Below are positions 2,122 to 6,302 of a stretch of 45,630 bases of DNA, piece after piece. The notes beneath the pieces are model-generated. The model saw only the letters and a list, made by a program, of their open reading frames with translations, ran no database searches and was not told the origin of the DNA. The stretch comes from Desulfopila aestuarii DSM 18488 (GTDB lineage Bacteria > Desulfobacterota > Desulfobulbia > Desulfobulbales > Desulfocapsaceae). A program made the position numbers and the translations under genes. Location of the stretch: NCBI GenBank assembly GCA_945863875.1, contig CAMBBS010000035.1, positions 1 through 45,630 on the forward strand, in the 5' to 3' direction. The stretch's first letter is position 1; every line of letters starts with the position of its first letter.

Positions 2122-2142
2122 TATTATGTCCCCAGATTAAAT
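2122..2142. repeat. 21-bp direct repeat, copy 1 (downstream of selO)
   Basis: TATTATGTCCCCAGATTAAAT is identical to bases 6376-6396. This copy touches the selO stop codon (2142-2144 on the minus strand), and the other lies upstream of selO. This copy has no inverted partner nearby. It is probably half of a dispersed palindromic (REP- or MITE-like) element. Confidence 0.75.
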
Positions 2143-2419
2143 CAAGAACTACAAGAAAGCATTATACATCCAGCCCTGCTGCGGGCCCAGTCGGGGCGTT
2201 TTACGGCAAAGTGTTCTTTGTCCGGTTGTTCGTCGTAGGGCTTGCGCAGCAGGTCGAGGAGTTCATTTACCAGGGCAAAGTCGCCGCTCTCCGCCTTGTC
2301 GATGGCGAGCTGGGCGAGGTAGTTGCGCAGGACGTATTTGGGATTGACGCTGTGCATCTTTTGCCGTCGCAGATCATCCGGGACCCTGTCCTGCCGCAGG
2401 CGTTTGGTGTAGGCTAGCA
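2142..2419 (-). pseudogene. selO: selO, 3' part (C-terminal 89 codons plus left target duplication)
   Basis: Read on the minus strand this encodes '[17 protein letters not shown]', then '[15 protein letters not shown]', '[13 protein letters not shown]' and a terminal 'SCSS' before TGA. That is the highly conserved C-terminal end of SelO/YdiU protein adenylyltransferases, which end in a Cys or Sec dipeptide context. It lacks a start. The frame joins the 5' part (4833-6173) across the insertion sequence: GCC (Ala) at the duplicated target is followed here by TAC (Tyr), rebuilding '..WLLAYTKRL..'. The GTG at 2420-2418 is an accident of the junction and not a gene start. The C-terminus is normally part of the fold, so neither half should be active alone. 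Confidence 0.93.
2412..2419. repeat. Target-site duplication, left copy (GGCTAGCA)
   Basis: GGCTAGCA immediately precedes the left end of the insertion sequence and recurs immediately after its right end at 4833-4840. An 8-bp duplication fits IS4-family elements of the IS50-like groups. Confidence 0.93.
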
Positions 2420-2436
2420 CTGCCCTTTACCCATAA
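2420..2436. repeat. Left terminal inverted repeat of the insertion sequence
   Basis: CTGCCCTTTACCCATAA; it pairs with 4816-4832 with one mismatch at position 10. Similarity stops after base 17, which defines the repeat length. Confidence 0.9.
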
Positions 2437-2589
2437 GTTTCGGCAACATTTTTTTAATCATCCCTGAGCTCGAACCCTTCGCACATAATTTGTAATATCG
2501 AATAGCCGTACCACATTACTTGATGACCAGGGGGGAGGTCGCCAGACCGGTTAAGATACCCGCCCATTCTTGCCACCAATTTTACCGCG

Positions 2590-4773
2590 TCACCTAAACA
2601 ACCTGGGGGCGCTAAGCTTTTTTTTTGCATAGGCGGCCAAGACTTTTATTTCCAGATCAGAAAATAATACTTCGGGAGGCAGTTCCGGGGTTTCTCTTCC
2701 CAAAAGTGTCATGAGCATGATCCGCCAGGCAACAACCATATTGATCGCTATTGCTCGCTTAAGCCGGTCGGCGGTTTTATGTGCCATCTTTTCAACTCCG
2801 CATCCAGATTTCAGCACCCGATGCCAGTCTTCGATTCGCCAGCGCAAACAATACCATTTTACACACTTTACGGCATCAGCAACGGATTTTATGTCGATTG
2901 TCGTAAGCAAAAACCATTCAACAGGTACCGTATCAGTAGGGGCATTGTCTTCGCGCACATGGACAATCCAGACCGGAAGGGGAGCTTTGTCCTGATAATA
3001 CGGTGGAGGATTCAATTCTACTTGTACATAGCGCACGGCAACTTCCGCTATACGTGCTGATCGTTTGGGACGAATTTTCTGTTTACTTTTTTTCGGTCTG
3101 GCGCTTTGTCGGGGGATCTTAATCTTAAGCATGGCCTGAACCGGCGATTGCCTGACTGTATCGAACAGTTTATGCTCTCCTGTTGTTCTACGATCGAATT
3201 TGGCGCGTACGAGCAGCTCAACCCTGGAAAAATTACACCGCTGTTCATCAAATAATTCAAAGAAGTCCGCCTCACGATCCAGGACGTTGACCAAAGAGGT
3301 ATGCGGCATCTGTGCTTTTAATTCTGTACAATCGCGCAACCCCTCGATCCAGCTGAATGTTTTTTTCTCTTCAATGGGGATTGCTGAGACCGGCCGTTTG
3401 TCCTCTTCTGCTTTTGGTTCTGGAGCAGTACATTTGGCACCTAGCACCCCCAGGGGCAGACCTTCTGTGGTTACCGTGAATGTCGAATGCAGATGCAACC
3501 CTTTGCTCTGAGCACCAGTCTGATTCTTGCCGATAACCCCCAAACCCTCACATTTGTCCAGATTGGAATAATTAAGATCACTGCCATCTTGAATACAAAG
3601 GACAGTCTTTTGTGCCTTCATTCGCCGTATCGTTTGCTCACGATGCGGCAGAAGGATATTGGCCATCGTCACACCTGAATCGCTCGGTTTATCGATCAAT
3701 CTATAGTAGCCTTTCACTTTTGACCAGTCGCCTCCCGCAACCCCACAATAGGCACGCCCAGGGTTCTGCGCTTTATCTGCTGCAATTTCAACAAGCCTGT
3801 CGCTCAGTCGCTTGTCGCCCAAAGGAGCTCCACCGAATTCTTTCTCTGCCCAATTCCCACCGTCGACGCAAGTGGTTATGTCAAGAGCATCTAAACCGCT
3901 GCCCTGCGGAAGCCCAATCTTGCTGCGGAAATCTTCAGCGAGTGGATACACATAAATATCTTTAATACTTTCCGCCTTCTTCACGAAACGATCCTGTCGT
4001 CCCCTGCCTTTGGTACGGCCGATCCAGTGCCAATTTGTGGCCTTGTAACATGTCCCAACATATCGATCGGTGTCTACAAAGCTTTCCAAAAGTTGCGGCC
4101 GGTAACCATAACGCGTTTCAAAATCTCCTGGAAATACTCGGATAACCATACCAAGCAATCTGGAGGCAAGGTTTTTACATGATACGCCGGAGCGAATCAG
4201 AAATCGGCTCATATTAACGACATGGTGTAAATTCGCTCGGCGGGTGTCCAAGTCCCAGCCGATCCATCTATCACGGGCCTCCAAGTGTAATGCCGCCGAA
4301 CTAAATCCCACACCTCCCAGCCAACCATATTCCGATTTCACTAGATAACGAAGTTGACGACCAACCAACGGGCCAGCTCCTCGCGGATGATCTTGAATCA
4401 TCATTTCGTTCCAGATTCGCCTATGCTCTTCTGTTTCTACCGTAATCAACTGTAATTGATAAATGTTTCCAACCTCATCGGCAACACCTTGAAGTTCAGG
4501 GAGTGGCTCTGAAAGACGTAATGTCCCTTGAATGCCCGGATGATTTCGGCGCAGGGGTAAAACAAATCGCCCCTGCCTTTCCAACTCGCGCAATGCTTTT
4601 ATGCATCCAGCGCTTTGCTTGTTCCAGAGTGGATCAAAAAAGTTATAATGCCCACAAAGATTATCCGCCAGTTGTGTCCGGCTGATGGTGTCATTATTAT
4701 CGAGTATGTTGCAGATGTACTCAATCACCTCAGGCTGCTCGAGTGTTCGTTTGATTTGATTTTGCGTTTCCAT
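2590..4773 (-). CDS. Tn5-like DDE transposase with N-terminal DUF4338 (DruA-like) domain
   Basis: The 727-residue product is about 250 residues longer than Tn5 transposase. Residues about 105-265 carry the DUF4338 signature also found in DruA of Druantia phage defence: 'GRQLRYLVKSEYGWLGGVGF', 'ARDRWIGWD', 'NLASRLLGMVIR', 'RYGYRPQLLESFVD', 'GTCYKATNWHWIGRTKGRGR'. From about 308 the Tn5-type half begins ('EFGGAPLGDKRLSDRLVEIA'). The catalytic triad is intact: D396 ('CIQDGSDLNY'), D499 ('VLDREADF') and E648 ('WRIEDWHRVLKSG', the Y-R-E-K region). It should cut and paste the flanking inverted repeats. No ribosome binding site precedes the ATG; a promoter six bases upstream suggests a leaderless mRNA. 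The role of the DUF4338 half in transposition is not known to me. Confidence 0.9.
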   Translation of the reverse strand: METQNQIKRTLEQPEVIEYICNILDNNDTISRTQLADNLCGHYNFFDPLWNKQSAGCIKALRELERQGRFVLPLRRNHPGIQGTLRLSEPLPELQGVADEVGNIYQLQLITVETEEHRRIWNEMMIQDHPRGAGPLVGRQLRYLVKSEYGWLGGVGFSSAALHLEARDRWIGWDLDTRRANLHHVVNMSRFLIRSGVSCKNLASRLLGMVIRVFPGDFETRYGYRPQLLESFVDTDRYVGTCYKATNWHWIGRTKGRGRQDRFVKKAESIKDIYVYPLAEDFRSKIGLPQGSGLDALDITTCVDGGNWAEKEFGGAPLGDKRLSDRLVEIAADKAQNPGRAYCGVAGGDWSKVKGYYRLIDKPSDSGVTMANILLPHREQTIRRMKAQKTVLCIQDGSDLNYSNLDKCEGLGVIGKNQTGAQSKGLHLHSTFTVTTEGLPLGVLGAKCTAPEPKAEEDKRPVSAIPIEEKKTFSWIEGLRDCTELKAQMPHTSLVNVLDREADFFELFDEQRCNFSRVELLVRAKFDRRTTGEHKLFDTVRQSPVQAMLKIKIPRQSARPKKSKQKIRPKRSARIAEVAVRYVQVELNPPPYYQDKAPLPVWIVHVREDNAPTDTVPVEWFLLTTIDIKSVADAVKCVKWYCLRWRIEDWHRVLKSGCGVEKMAHKTADRLKRAIAINMVVAWRIMLMTLLGRETPELPPEVLFSDLEIKVLAAYAKKKLSAPRLFR

Positions 4774-4779
4774 GCCGAC

Positions 4780-4808
4780 AGTATCAACGACGTGAAAATA
4801 GCTGTCCA
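4780..4808 (-). promoter_or_regulatory. Putative promoter of the transposase, at the right end of the insertion sequence
   Basis: On the minus strand TGGACA (4808-4803) is followed after 17 bases by GATACT (4785-4780), a fair sigma-70 match. The ATG starts only six bases after the -10 box, so transcription would begin at or next to the start codon. Confidence 0.45.
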
Positions 4809-4815
4809 GTGTTAT

Positions 4816-4832
4816 TTATGGGCAAAGGGCAG
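4816..4832. repeat. Right terminal inverted repeat of the insertion sequence
   Basis: On the minus strand CTGCCCTTTGCCCATAA, partner of 2420-2436. It also supplies the six foreign codons (LPFAHK) and the TAA that now end the selO 5' part. Confidence 0.9.
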
Positions 4833-4840
4833 GGCTAGCA
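4833..4840. repeat. Target-site duplication, right copy (GGCTAGCA)
   Basis: Exact copy of 2412-2419, inside the selO reading frame (codons for Leu-Leu-Ala). Confidence 0.93.
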
Positions 4841-6173
4841 GCCAGTCGCTGAGCCGATGGCGGTAGTCATCGGATATCTCTTGCGGGGTGTAGTTTGCCT
4901 GGCAAAGGGCTGCCGACAGTTCTTCCGGCTTGTGCGGTGTGGTATCGGCGGAGATGGTCGCCAGATTTCTGAAGAAAATGGTCATATCCGTTTCTACGAG
5001 CTGGAGGATTTCCACCAGTTCGCCGATAAGTGCATCGTCGGTTGCCGCTTCAAAACTCTTCAAGCCAAGTTTTGCCGCCATCATGTCGTTCCATCCGCTG
5101 AGAAACAGCGAATTGTAGGAGCTGAGAGCTTCCTGCAGCGGTTCAATTTGCCGCACCAGCGGGTAGATGGCGTTGGCCAGCTGCAGAAGGTTCCACTGGC
5201 CGATATGTGGCTGGTTGCTGAAGCAGTAGCGGCGGCGATGGGCATCGGTGGTGTTTGGCGTCCACTGTGTTTCATAACCCTCGAGCCAGCCGTAGGGCCC
5301 GTAATCGATGGTCAGGCCGAGGATGGACATATTATCGGTATTCATCACCCCGTGCACAAAACCCACCCGCATCCAGTGAAGGATCATCGCCGCGGTGGTA
5401 CGGCATATCTCGCTGAACCATGCGATATAGACCGGAACCGATGGCTCGCCCAGATGGGGGAAGTCGGTGCGGATGGTGTAGTCGACCAGCCTTTGCAGCA
5501 GCGCGGTTTCGCCCCGGGCGGTGAGGATTTCGTAATTGCCGAACCTGAGAAACGATGGCGCCACCCGGCAGACGACGGCGCCCGGTTCGTCCTTCGGGTG
5601 GCCGTCGTAAAACATGTCCCGGGTGACCAGTTCCCCGGTGGTAACAATACTCAGCGCCCGGGTTTTCGGGATGCCCAGGTGGTGCATGGCCTCGCTGCAG
5701 AGAAATTCCCTGATCGACGAACGCAGCACCGCCAGGCCGTCGGCTTGCCGGGAATAGGGCGTTGGTCCGGCCCCTTTCAGCTGCAGCATCCACCGCCTGT
5801 TGTCTTTATTGAGGATCTCGCCGAGATTGATCGCCCGGCCGTCGCCGAGCTGTCCGGCCCAGTTGCCGAATTGATGTCCGCCATAGCACATGGCAAAAGG
5901 ATCCATGCCGGGCAGGAGATTGTTGCCGGCAAAGATCTCGGTAAAAAGGAACGAGCGGCAAAACTCCTCGGACAGGTCGAGCAGGTCGGCCGTTTCACGG
6001 CTGTAGGCGACCAGCTGCGGCTTGGATACTTTTGTTGGCTGCACCCGTGAATAGCAGGCGCCCTTCACCTGGCGACAATAATTGTCGGCTTGCGGGTCGG
6101 ACGGCAGCTCTTCGACGAAGCGGTTGTCGAAAACGATCGGGTTGGTGAGTTGGTTGGGAAGTTGGGTACTCAT
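4833..6173 (-). pseudogene. selO: selO, 5' part (first 447 codons), interrupted by the insertion sequence
   Basis: SelO is a pseudokinase-fold enzyme that transfers AMP to protein hydroxyl groups. Seen here: '[20 protein letters not shown]', '[13 protein letters not shown]', '[17 protein letters not shown]', '[15 protein letters not shown]', '[18 protein letters not shown]', all family hallmarks around the nucleotide site. The start is set at the ATG at 6173 ('MSTQLPNQL'); a GTG further upstream at 6239 is possible. The frame runs six codons into the insertion sequence and stops at 4812. Joined to 2142-2411 it would give about 536 residues, near the family's usual length, with no other lesion seen. 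A truncated product lacking the C-terminal 89 residues may be made but is probably inactive. Confidence 0.93.
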
Positions 6174-6302
6174 GGGTTTGTCCGGGTTAATTTTGTTTGG
6201 TGTTGTGATGCCCCGATTAATGAAGACTAAGCATGACACATTGTGGCGGCAAATTAATATGATAAAATAACCAGGTTGCCAGATTCTTCGATAATAGTTA
6301 TT

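Follow-up and report, generated by a model that had tools for sequence, protein, structure and literature searches.

The insertion sequence that interrupts the selO gene of Desulfopila aestuarii DSM 18488 codes for a single 727-residue protein that joins a predicted winged helix, a DUF4338 domain with a predicted GNAT fold nearest to that of the phage Mu protein Mom, and a Tn5-type transposase. It lies in a stretch of 45,630 nucleotides, hereafter called the window (contig CAMBBS010000035.1 of assembly GCA_945863875.1, positions 1 to 45,630 of the forward strand), and its features are listed in Table 1. Based on sequence comparisons and structural models, we propose, as the likeliest reading, that this protein is a transposase-tethered, Mom-like acyltransferase acting on DNA. 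We consider the whole of this functional chain to be evenly balanced between right and wrong, and the identities of the element and of its domains to be much surer. A wider proposal, to which we give rather less than even credence, is that insertion sequences of at least five DDE transposase families encode, within or next to the transposase, a Mom-like enzyme that would hypermodify a DNA base of the element or of its target as transposition takes place, for self-marking or restriction evasion; DruA of Druantia would then be a defence branch that has diverged within this family.

Profile searches recovered both halves of the fusion between DUF4338 and a Tn5-type catalytic domain that the original prediction, an earlier reading of the same DNA, had put forward. 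The Pfam family PF14236 (DUF4338, now named DruA) matches residues 98 to 263 (E-value 6.5e-37, 127.7 bits for a cut-off of 27), in agreement with the expected location at residues 105 to 265. Extending DUF4338 over the first 300 residues proved correct only for a core of approximately residues 98 to 286, residues 1 to 75 being predicted to form a winged helix instead. The NCBIfam IS4 model NF033590 (IS4_3) matches residues 355 to 722 (E-value 7.6e-87, 291.9 bits, equivalog cut-off 160), and phmmer aligns residues 305 to 688 with the Tn5 transposase (E-value 5.5e-33). The predicted full-length model, whose mean predicted local distance difference test (pLDDT) score is 84.4, superimposes on the solved Tn5 transposase with a Z-score of 39.1 over 366 residues. 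The proposed catalytic residues D396, D499 and E648 are invariant in all 30 aligned relatives, as are Y641, R644 and K655 of the YREK signature. The PF02281 dimerisation domain gave only a weak partial match (profile positions 1 to 38 of 99, E-value 0.094). Two fusions from one genome (L057:2615-4747 and L066:1906-4125) lack the YREK pattern in their transposase half and have kept the motifs of the DUF4338 half; they are possibly domesticated or decaying.

The fusion is the only large open reading frame (ORF) between the element ends at 2420 and 4832. Pfam identified selO from the 5' part of the interrupted gene; the 3' part on its own gave no Pfam match, and its identity follows from the restored reading frame. 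A search for element ends over 26 loci returned end pairs in 16 and none in 10. The pair of L110 (score 22), whose ORF runs off the contig, looked like chance and was dropped. The 15 elements kept, including that of the window, have the same kind of ends and are 2,406 to 2,436 bp long. Both flanks are available for 13 of them: five have identical 8-bp copies, five have copies with a one-base difference, and the flanks of the remaining three (L105, L118 and L070) share little beyond the core. In this element group CTAG is found in the left flank in 13 of 15 cases and in the right flank in 9 of 13. This preference is unlikely to be due to chance, since CTAG occurs only 12 times in the window for 175 occurrences expected from base composition, i.e. 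it is about 15-fold rarer. Outside the window's group, the fused L146, with ends taken from a cruder search, and the split L177 are flanked by 9-bp target copies without CTAG. Thus, CTAG is not tied to the DUF4338 module as such.

An AlphaFold2 model of residues 1 to 300 was built from an 80-row alignment (mean pLDDT 91.5). In this model residues 1 to 75 contain helices at 2-11, 14-26, 32-42 and 54-66 and resemble a winged helix, which probably binds DNA; among the 80 family members, weak matches were obtained to PaaX in three and to HTH_24 in one. The order of strands and helices of residues 104 to 286 is that of GNAT acetyltransferases. In a second-look structural alignment with 999 chains, phage Mu Mom (8bv8) came first, with a Z-score of 14.1 and a root-mean-square deviation of 3.6 over 171 aligned residues, and the next chain had a Z-score of 12.9. 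Mom was again the best row with a GNAT fold when the full-length model was used (Z-scores of 14.3 versus 13.0), and a Mom protein of a Salmonella phage ranked sixth among viral models (E-value 5.6e-7). Sequence profiles also point, weakly but consistently, towards Mom. With an E-value limit of 1, the Pfam Mom family (PF25680) matches 61 of the 80 family members (best E-value 3.9e-5); apart from PF14236, no other family matches more than three of them. The PHROG 'Mom-like DNA modification protein' matches three of three transposon-type members (E-values 6.6e-6 to 8.4e-4) and gave no match in the single DruA-type protein tested. Searched against the sequences of solved structures, the domain profile returned a single, chance-like row (E-value 0.71).

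The entry title of 8bv8 reads 'inactive mutant S124A'. By comparison with the Mu sequence, the alanine was located in the motif N-S-E-S-R, and the serine that it replaces aligns with S204 in the motif N-L-A-S204-R of the window protein. S204 is present in 144 of 145 rows of the transposon-type DUF4338 alignment, and H129, R167 and R190 are present in all 146; the four residues are invariant in the 25 rows that span five transposase families. Such conservation of polar residues suggests that an enzyme active site has been retained, and it argues against a pure DNA-recognition role.

Occurrences of the domain were collected in the phylum. PF14236 was found in 47 of 297 genomes (79 hit rows), and 67 loci holding 69 of these rows were examined, seven from the genome of D. 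aestuarii and 60 fetched; the other ten rows are one further G218 copy and nine weak or fragmentary ones. Five loci are of the DruA type, including L094, which was assigned by its Pfam range alone. In 41 of the 62 others, the module is fused or adjacent to a DDE transposase of one of five families, counting only partners of these families that lie on the same strand and no more than 500 bp away. The link between DUF4338 and transposition, also part of the original prediction, is borne out. The 18 fused cases comprise Tn5 (6), IS701 (6), ISAs1 (4), IS1634 (1) and IS66 (1, the decayed locus L006). The 23 adjacent cases comprise IS66 (20), Tn5 (1, L003, which is a broken fusion), ISAs1 (1) and IS701 (1). 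Two of the 67 loci, L045 and L097, are exact duplicates of each other within a single genome. Members of the five families exceed the curated NCBI cut-offs for IS4, IS66, IS701, ISAs1 and IS1634. When seven proteins were checked with NCBIfam, the partner in L058 had no match, and Pfam identified an ISAs1-like DDE domain there.

A second set of 80 named loci, the best 80 of at least 580 confirmed, was picked by likeness to the window domain and is hence biased towards Tn5. The record titles come from many bacterial phyla; 68 of the loci have a DDE partner and 12 have none. The Tn5 fusion is not a chance event, because 32 of the 80 loci carry one. In 5 of 18 IS66-type elements, inverted repeats enclose both genes and exact 8-bp copies stand just outside, with a tolerance of up to 6 positions. 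In these cases the repeats place the module inside the mobile unit.

The genome of D. aestuarii itself harbours further DUF4338 genes directly beside IS66-type transposase genes (L002, L005 and the decayed L006), as well as L003, a broken relative of the window element, and two loci cut by contig ends (L004 and L007). The IS66-type domain of L002 matched 2 of 72,556 plasmid records and none of 50,697 phage records. With the window protein as query, 619 plasmid records matched, and in none of the 619 did a single place cover 80% of the protein. The 30 matches listed of these 619 all start at residue 240 or later, and they correspond to Tn5-type transposases without the module. None of seven candidate stretches was confirmed in a viral scan with the window protein alone, and 5 of 20 were confirmed in a profile scan of viral contigs. 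Other arrangements were observed in single loci. In L048:714-4068, a DUF4338 gene for which no transposase was recognised is approximately 0.8 kb away from a gene on the same strand that matches BrxC/BrxD of the BREX system (PF10923, E-value 7.7e-60). L044:1831-3878 has a back-to-back pair of divergent DUF4338 genes, one of which is followed downstream by an IS66 transposase, and L170:111-2591 codes for a reversed fusion in an 827-residue frame, with the IS66 transposase N-terminal and DUF4338 C-terminal.

Phylogenetic analyses indicated that the module has changed partners repeatedly. In a tree of 118 domain rows, 34 Tn5-fused rows group with one split row in a single clade, with a support of 98 in the Shimodaira-Hasegawa-like approximate likelihood ratio test (SH-aLRT), and five rows with Tn5 upstream form a separate clade (support 99). 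The partner family changes at least seven times in this tree, the least possible number being four with rows without a partner excluded. In the transposase tree (53 rows), three lineages are placed away from the window's group: the upstream group (support 100), L169 (93, with the module-free L188 and L189) and L175 (97, with the module-free L190). The fused forms do not make up one clade there (six changes). Both trees are unrooted quick searches supported by SH-aLRT values only, L057 and L190 are long branches in the transposase tree, and the DruA-type rows are aligned over only part of the domain; they lend no support to the further idea of the original prediction that DruA may derive from such transposases. 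This repeated exchange of partners argues for a function in transposition.

Coding-sequence comparisons of nine pairs gave ratios of non-synonymous to synonymous differences (pN/pS) of 0.08 to 0.39 for the GNAT part and 0.11 to 0.40 for the Tn5 part, with saturated synonymous change in two pairs (window-L105 and L145-L164). By this measure, constraint on the module is similar to that on the catalytic domain. The winged helix has pN/pS values of 0.20 to 0.59, and its non-synonymous divergence (dN) is higher in nine of nine pairs.

Several observations weigh against a Mom-like activity. Ordered by Foldseek E-value, Mom is at rank 23 (2.6e-4) behind ordinary acetyltransferases, the first of which has an E-value of 1.1e-5, and numerous GNATs reach Z-scores of about 12. 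The window domain scores 16.9 bits with the Pfam Mom family, below the gathering cut-off of 27.1, and hhalign with a single Mom sequence was not significant (E-value 0.06, probability 0.9%). In the model, S204 is at the start of helix 202-222. GNATs usually bind coenzyme A (CoA) phosphates at such a helix start, and S204 may thus serve cofactor binding. Twenty-one of the 62 non-DruA loci have no recognised DDE partner, some of them being decayed or cut by contig ends. Lastly, a shared fold by itself shows no function.

We think it unlikely that the N-terminal half serves for DNA recognition alone, with the winged helix and a catalytically dead GNAT domain choosing the element ends or CTAG. The original prediction had suggested such a role for the DUF4338 domain. 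A winged helix is indeed predicted, the elements of the window's group insert at CTAG, and N-L-A-S stands where the glycine-rich loop that GNATs typically carry would be expected. However, recognition surfaces should vary, whereas H129, R167, R190 and S204 are invariant or nearly so; the 9-bp copies of L146 and L177 uncouple CTAG from the module, and it is the winged helix that has the higher dN. As the GNAT core nearest to Mom and its invariant polar residues point to an enzyme, we do not consider that suggestion supported in this form. DNA recognition would more likely be performed by the added winged helix.

The GNAT domain might also have a substrate other than DNA, controlling transposition by acylating the transposase, a host protein or a tRNA. 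The fold is a general one, ordinary acetyltransferases lead the Foldseek order, the protein acetyltransferases Naa60 and RimI reach Z-scores of 12.9 and 12.5, and the domain is part of one polypeptide with a transposase. Nevertheless, the highest Z-score belongs to Mom, which is a DNA-base enzyme, the Pfam and PHROG matches single out Mom as well, and the added winged helix suits a DNA substrate. We therefore regard a non-DNA substrate as improbable.

The original prediction had also described DUF4338 as a phage-defence domain. With the window protein, the PADLOC DruA models gave partial matches only (E-values 0.0016 and 0.0066), as against 7.5e-114, 1.6e-122, 2.6e-87 and 9.4e-89 obtained with four DruA-type proteins from the survey. 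The latter have a Trp in place of H129 (4 of 4), and their residue at position 204 is a glycine in two and is unaligned in the other two. On the weak score and the differing key residues, membership of the window protein in a Druantia system was rejected, and no druB to druE genes are present within the element ends. The transposon-type and DruA-type proteins both belong to PF14236 and differ in signature and in company. A captured anti-phage defence domain acting as in Druantia is accordingly a very improbable explanation. The shared Pfam family speaks for it, as do the tested neighbours of three DruA-type genes (L040, L042 and L043), which gave matches to models of HerA, type III restriction or TmtA; the element devoid of Druantia genes and the transposase partners in 41 of 62 non-DruA loci speak against it. 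A chance or decaying fusion without function, in keeping with a window ORF that ends soon after a run of nine A and with the broken own-genome relative L003, is the least probable of all, given that the fused rows make up one clade with the single split row and that both halves have pN/pS values well below 1 in nine of nine pairs, with no sign of neutral evolution of the GNAT part.

That run of A is near the 3' end of the gene. The ORF of the window stops eight codons past it, and the approximately 50 C-terminal residues of relatives are encoded in another frame, so the 727-residue ORF is shorter than the family-length protein. In the window's clade of 21 members, window included, 19 have seven to ten A at this site (8 to 10 in 17 and 7 in 2) and two have no run; the run begins 181 to 184 nt past the catalytic lysine codon. 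The tail is in frame 0 in seven clade rows, frame 1 in seven and frame 2 in five, with two left uncalled by the pattern. No run of six or more A was found in the scanned stretch of 12 fused relatives outside the clade, and no run of seven or more in seven module-free relatives, one of which has six A. As there are only nine runs of at least eight A or T in the 45.6-kb window, the shared run site is not a chance occurrence. The tail yielded pN/pS values in eight pairs, from 0.17 to 0.74; in five pairs with tails in different frames they are 0.17, 0.18, 0.20, 0.30 and 0.51, and the value of 0.74 is that of L154-L146, outside the slippage clade.

Read from the sequence only, these features fit a programmed transcriptional slippage site that would give rise to a transposase with and without its C-terminal tail; assembly errors may account for the frame difference in single copies. 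In the accessible text of PMC1088944, transcriptional slippage is described for other insertion sequences with conserved runs of eight or nine A and a downstream part in another frame.

Table 1. Positions of the insertion sequence, its gene and the interrupted selO gene in the window
Feature	Positions	Strand	Basis
Insertion sequence, IS4/Tn5 type, 2,413 bp	2420..4832	-	17-bp inverted repeats at the ends, with one mismatch; 8-bp flanks that match exactly
Target duplication, left copy, GGCTAGCA	2412..2419	.	same sequence as 4833-4840
Target duplication, right copy, GGCTAGCA	4833..4840	.	same sequence as 2412-2419
Terminal inverted repeat, element 3' end, CTGCCCTTTACCCATAA	2420..2436	.	end-pair search
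Terminal inverted repeat, element 5' end, inward CTGCCCTTTGCCCATAA	4816..4832	.	end-pair search
Fusion of winged helix (predicted), Mom-like GNAT (predicted) and Tn5 transposase, 727 residues	2590..4773	-	single ORF
Residues 1-75, predicted winged helix	4549..4773	-	model helices
Residues 104-286, PF14236 core, predicted GNAT fold, nearest Mom	3916..4464	-	Pfam, model, structure alignment
H129 codon	4387..4389	-	invariant in transposon-type DUF4338 (146/146 rows)
S204 codon	4162..4164	-	aligned with the Mom serine mutated in 8bv8 (S124A)
Residues 307-362, Tn5-type end-binding domain (PF14706, Tnp_DNA_bind)	3688..3855	-	Pfam, E-value 2.8e-10
Residues 370-688, RNase H-like DDE catalytic domain	2710..3666	-	NCBIfam, phmmer, fold, conserved residues
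D396 codon	3586..3588	-	DDE triad
D499 codon	3277..3279	-	DDE triad
E648 codon	2830..2832	-	DDE triad
A9 run (coding strand), candidate slippage site	2618..2626	-	A7-A10 at the site in 19/21 clade members
Open frame shifted relative to the 727-residue ORF, with the conserved C-terminal tail of the family	2454..2645	-	comparison with relatives
Candidate promoter of the transposase gene, TGGACA-17-GATACT	4780..4808	-	pattern scan, consensus match only
selO, 5' part (interrupted gene)	4840..6239	-	Pfam SelO, E-value 9.7e-115
selO, 3' part	2142..2419	-	in frame with the 5' part once the element and one target copy are removed

A CTGGACA box near the element ends was considered as a DUF4338 binding site and rejected. 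Exact GGACA is present in the first 60 nt of nine of 15 5' ends and three of 15 3' ends, and a looser CTGGACA form, judged by eye, is found at all 15 5' ends and is clear at four of 15 3' ends. In the window the box is compatible with a -35 element separated by 17 nt from GATACT, and a box similar to this candidate promoter is present at the 5' ends of relatives.

If the fusion protein is a Mom-like acyltransferase tethered to a transposase, the winged helix and the Tn5 end-binding domain would bring the enzyme to the element DNA. The GNAT part would then use a CoA-like donor to place an acyl-type group on a base, which in Mu is adenine. One possible outcome is that the newly inserted or excised element would be shielded from host restriction. 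Alternatively, the element ends could be marked so as to limit transposition, in a manner similar to the Dam methylation that limits transposition of IS50 and IS10. The run of 7 to 10 A before the C-terminus might in addition yield a mix of truncated and full-length transposases by transcriptional slippage.

The IS4 family of insertion sequences and Mom are already known, and DUF4338 has been interpreted as a GNAT domain before. The window protein resembles the Tn5/IS50 transposase in its end-binding domain, in its DDE fold with Y-R-E-K (Z-score 39.1), in element ends that start with CTG and in a short target copy, which is 9 bp for Tn5. It differs from it by approximately 300 additional N-terminal residues that contain the predicted winged helix and Mom-like GNAT domain, by a PF02281 match limited to positions 1 to 38 of 99, and by a tail that lies behind the A run. 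With Mom of Mu, itself a transposing phage, it shares the predicted GNAT fold, with the highest Z-score among the solved structures aligned, and the serine mutated in 8bv8, which aligns with S204. In contrast, Mom (8bv8, PF25680) is a separate gene product without a transposase, the sequence similarity of the window domain is under the Pfam cut-off, and its function here is a predicted one. DruA of Druantia type I (PADLOC DruA1) is of the same Pfam family, but the PADLOC score of the window protein is marginal, four DruA-type proteins lack the H129/S204 signature, and three have defence-type genes rather than transposases beside them.

A DUF4338 domain fused to DndF is named a GCN5-like acetyltransferase domain in PMC10853773, the accessible text of which proposes that, as a defence co-effector, it acts on proteins in a suicidal manner; unlike our analysis, that text does not tie DUF4338 to transposases or to Mom. 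The slippage elements of PMC1088944 are similar to that of the window in their conserved A runs with downstream coding in another frame. According to the accessible text, it is mainly two transposase frames that are fused in those elements, whereas the run of the window element is followed by the short C-terminal tail that belongs to a Tn5-type transposase. In the accessible texts of the open-access literature we found no account of DDE transposases that are fused to a Mom-like domain or accompanied by one, most subscription journals lying outside the search.

Mom is the classic phage case of hiding DNA by an odd base modification. An add-on with a predicted likeness to it recurs across unrelated bacterial transposon families, in association with five families of DDE transposases. 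As a warning for annotation, many PF14236 matches, which are named DruA in Pfam, are transposon genes, as in 41 of 62 loci not of the DruA type in one phylum. The likeness to Mom also offers a starting point for working out the chemistry of the DUF4338/DruA family. If insertion sequences do modify DNA in the course of their movement, a new layer of transposition control or of restriction evasion would come to light.

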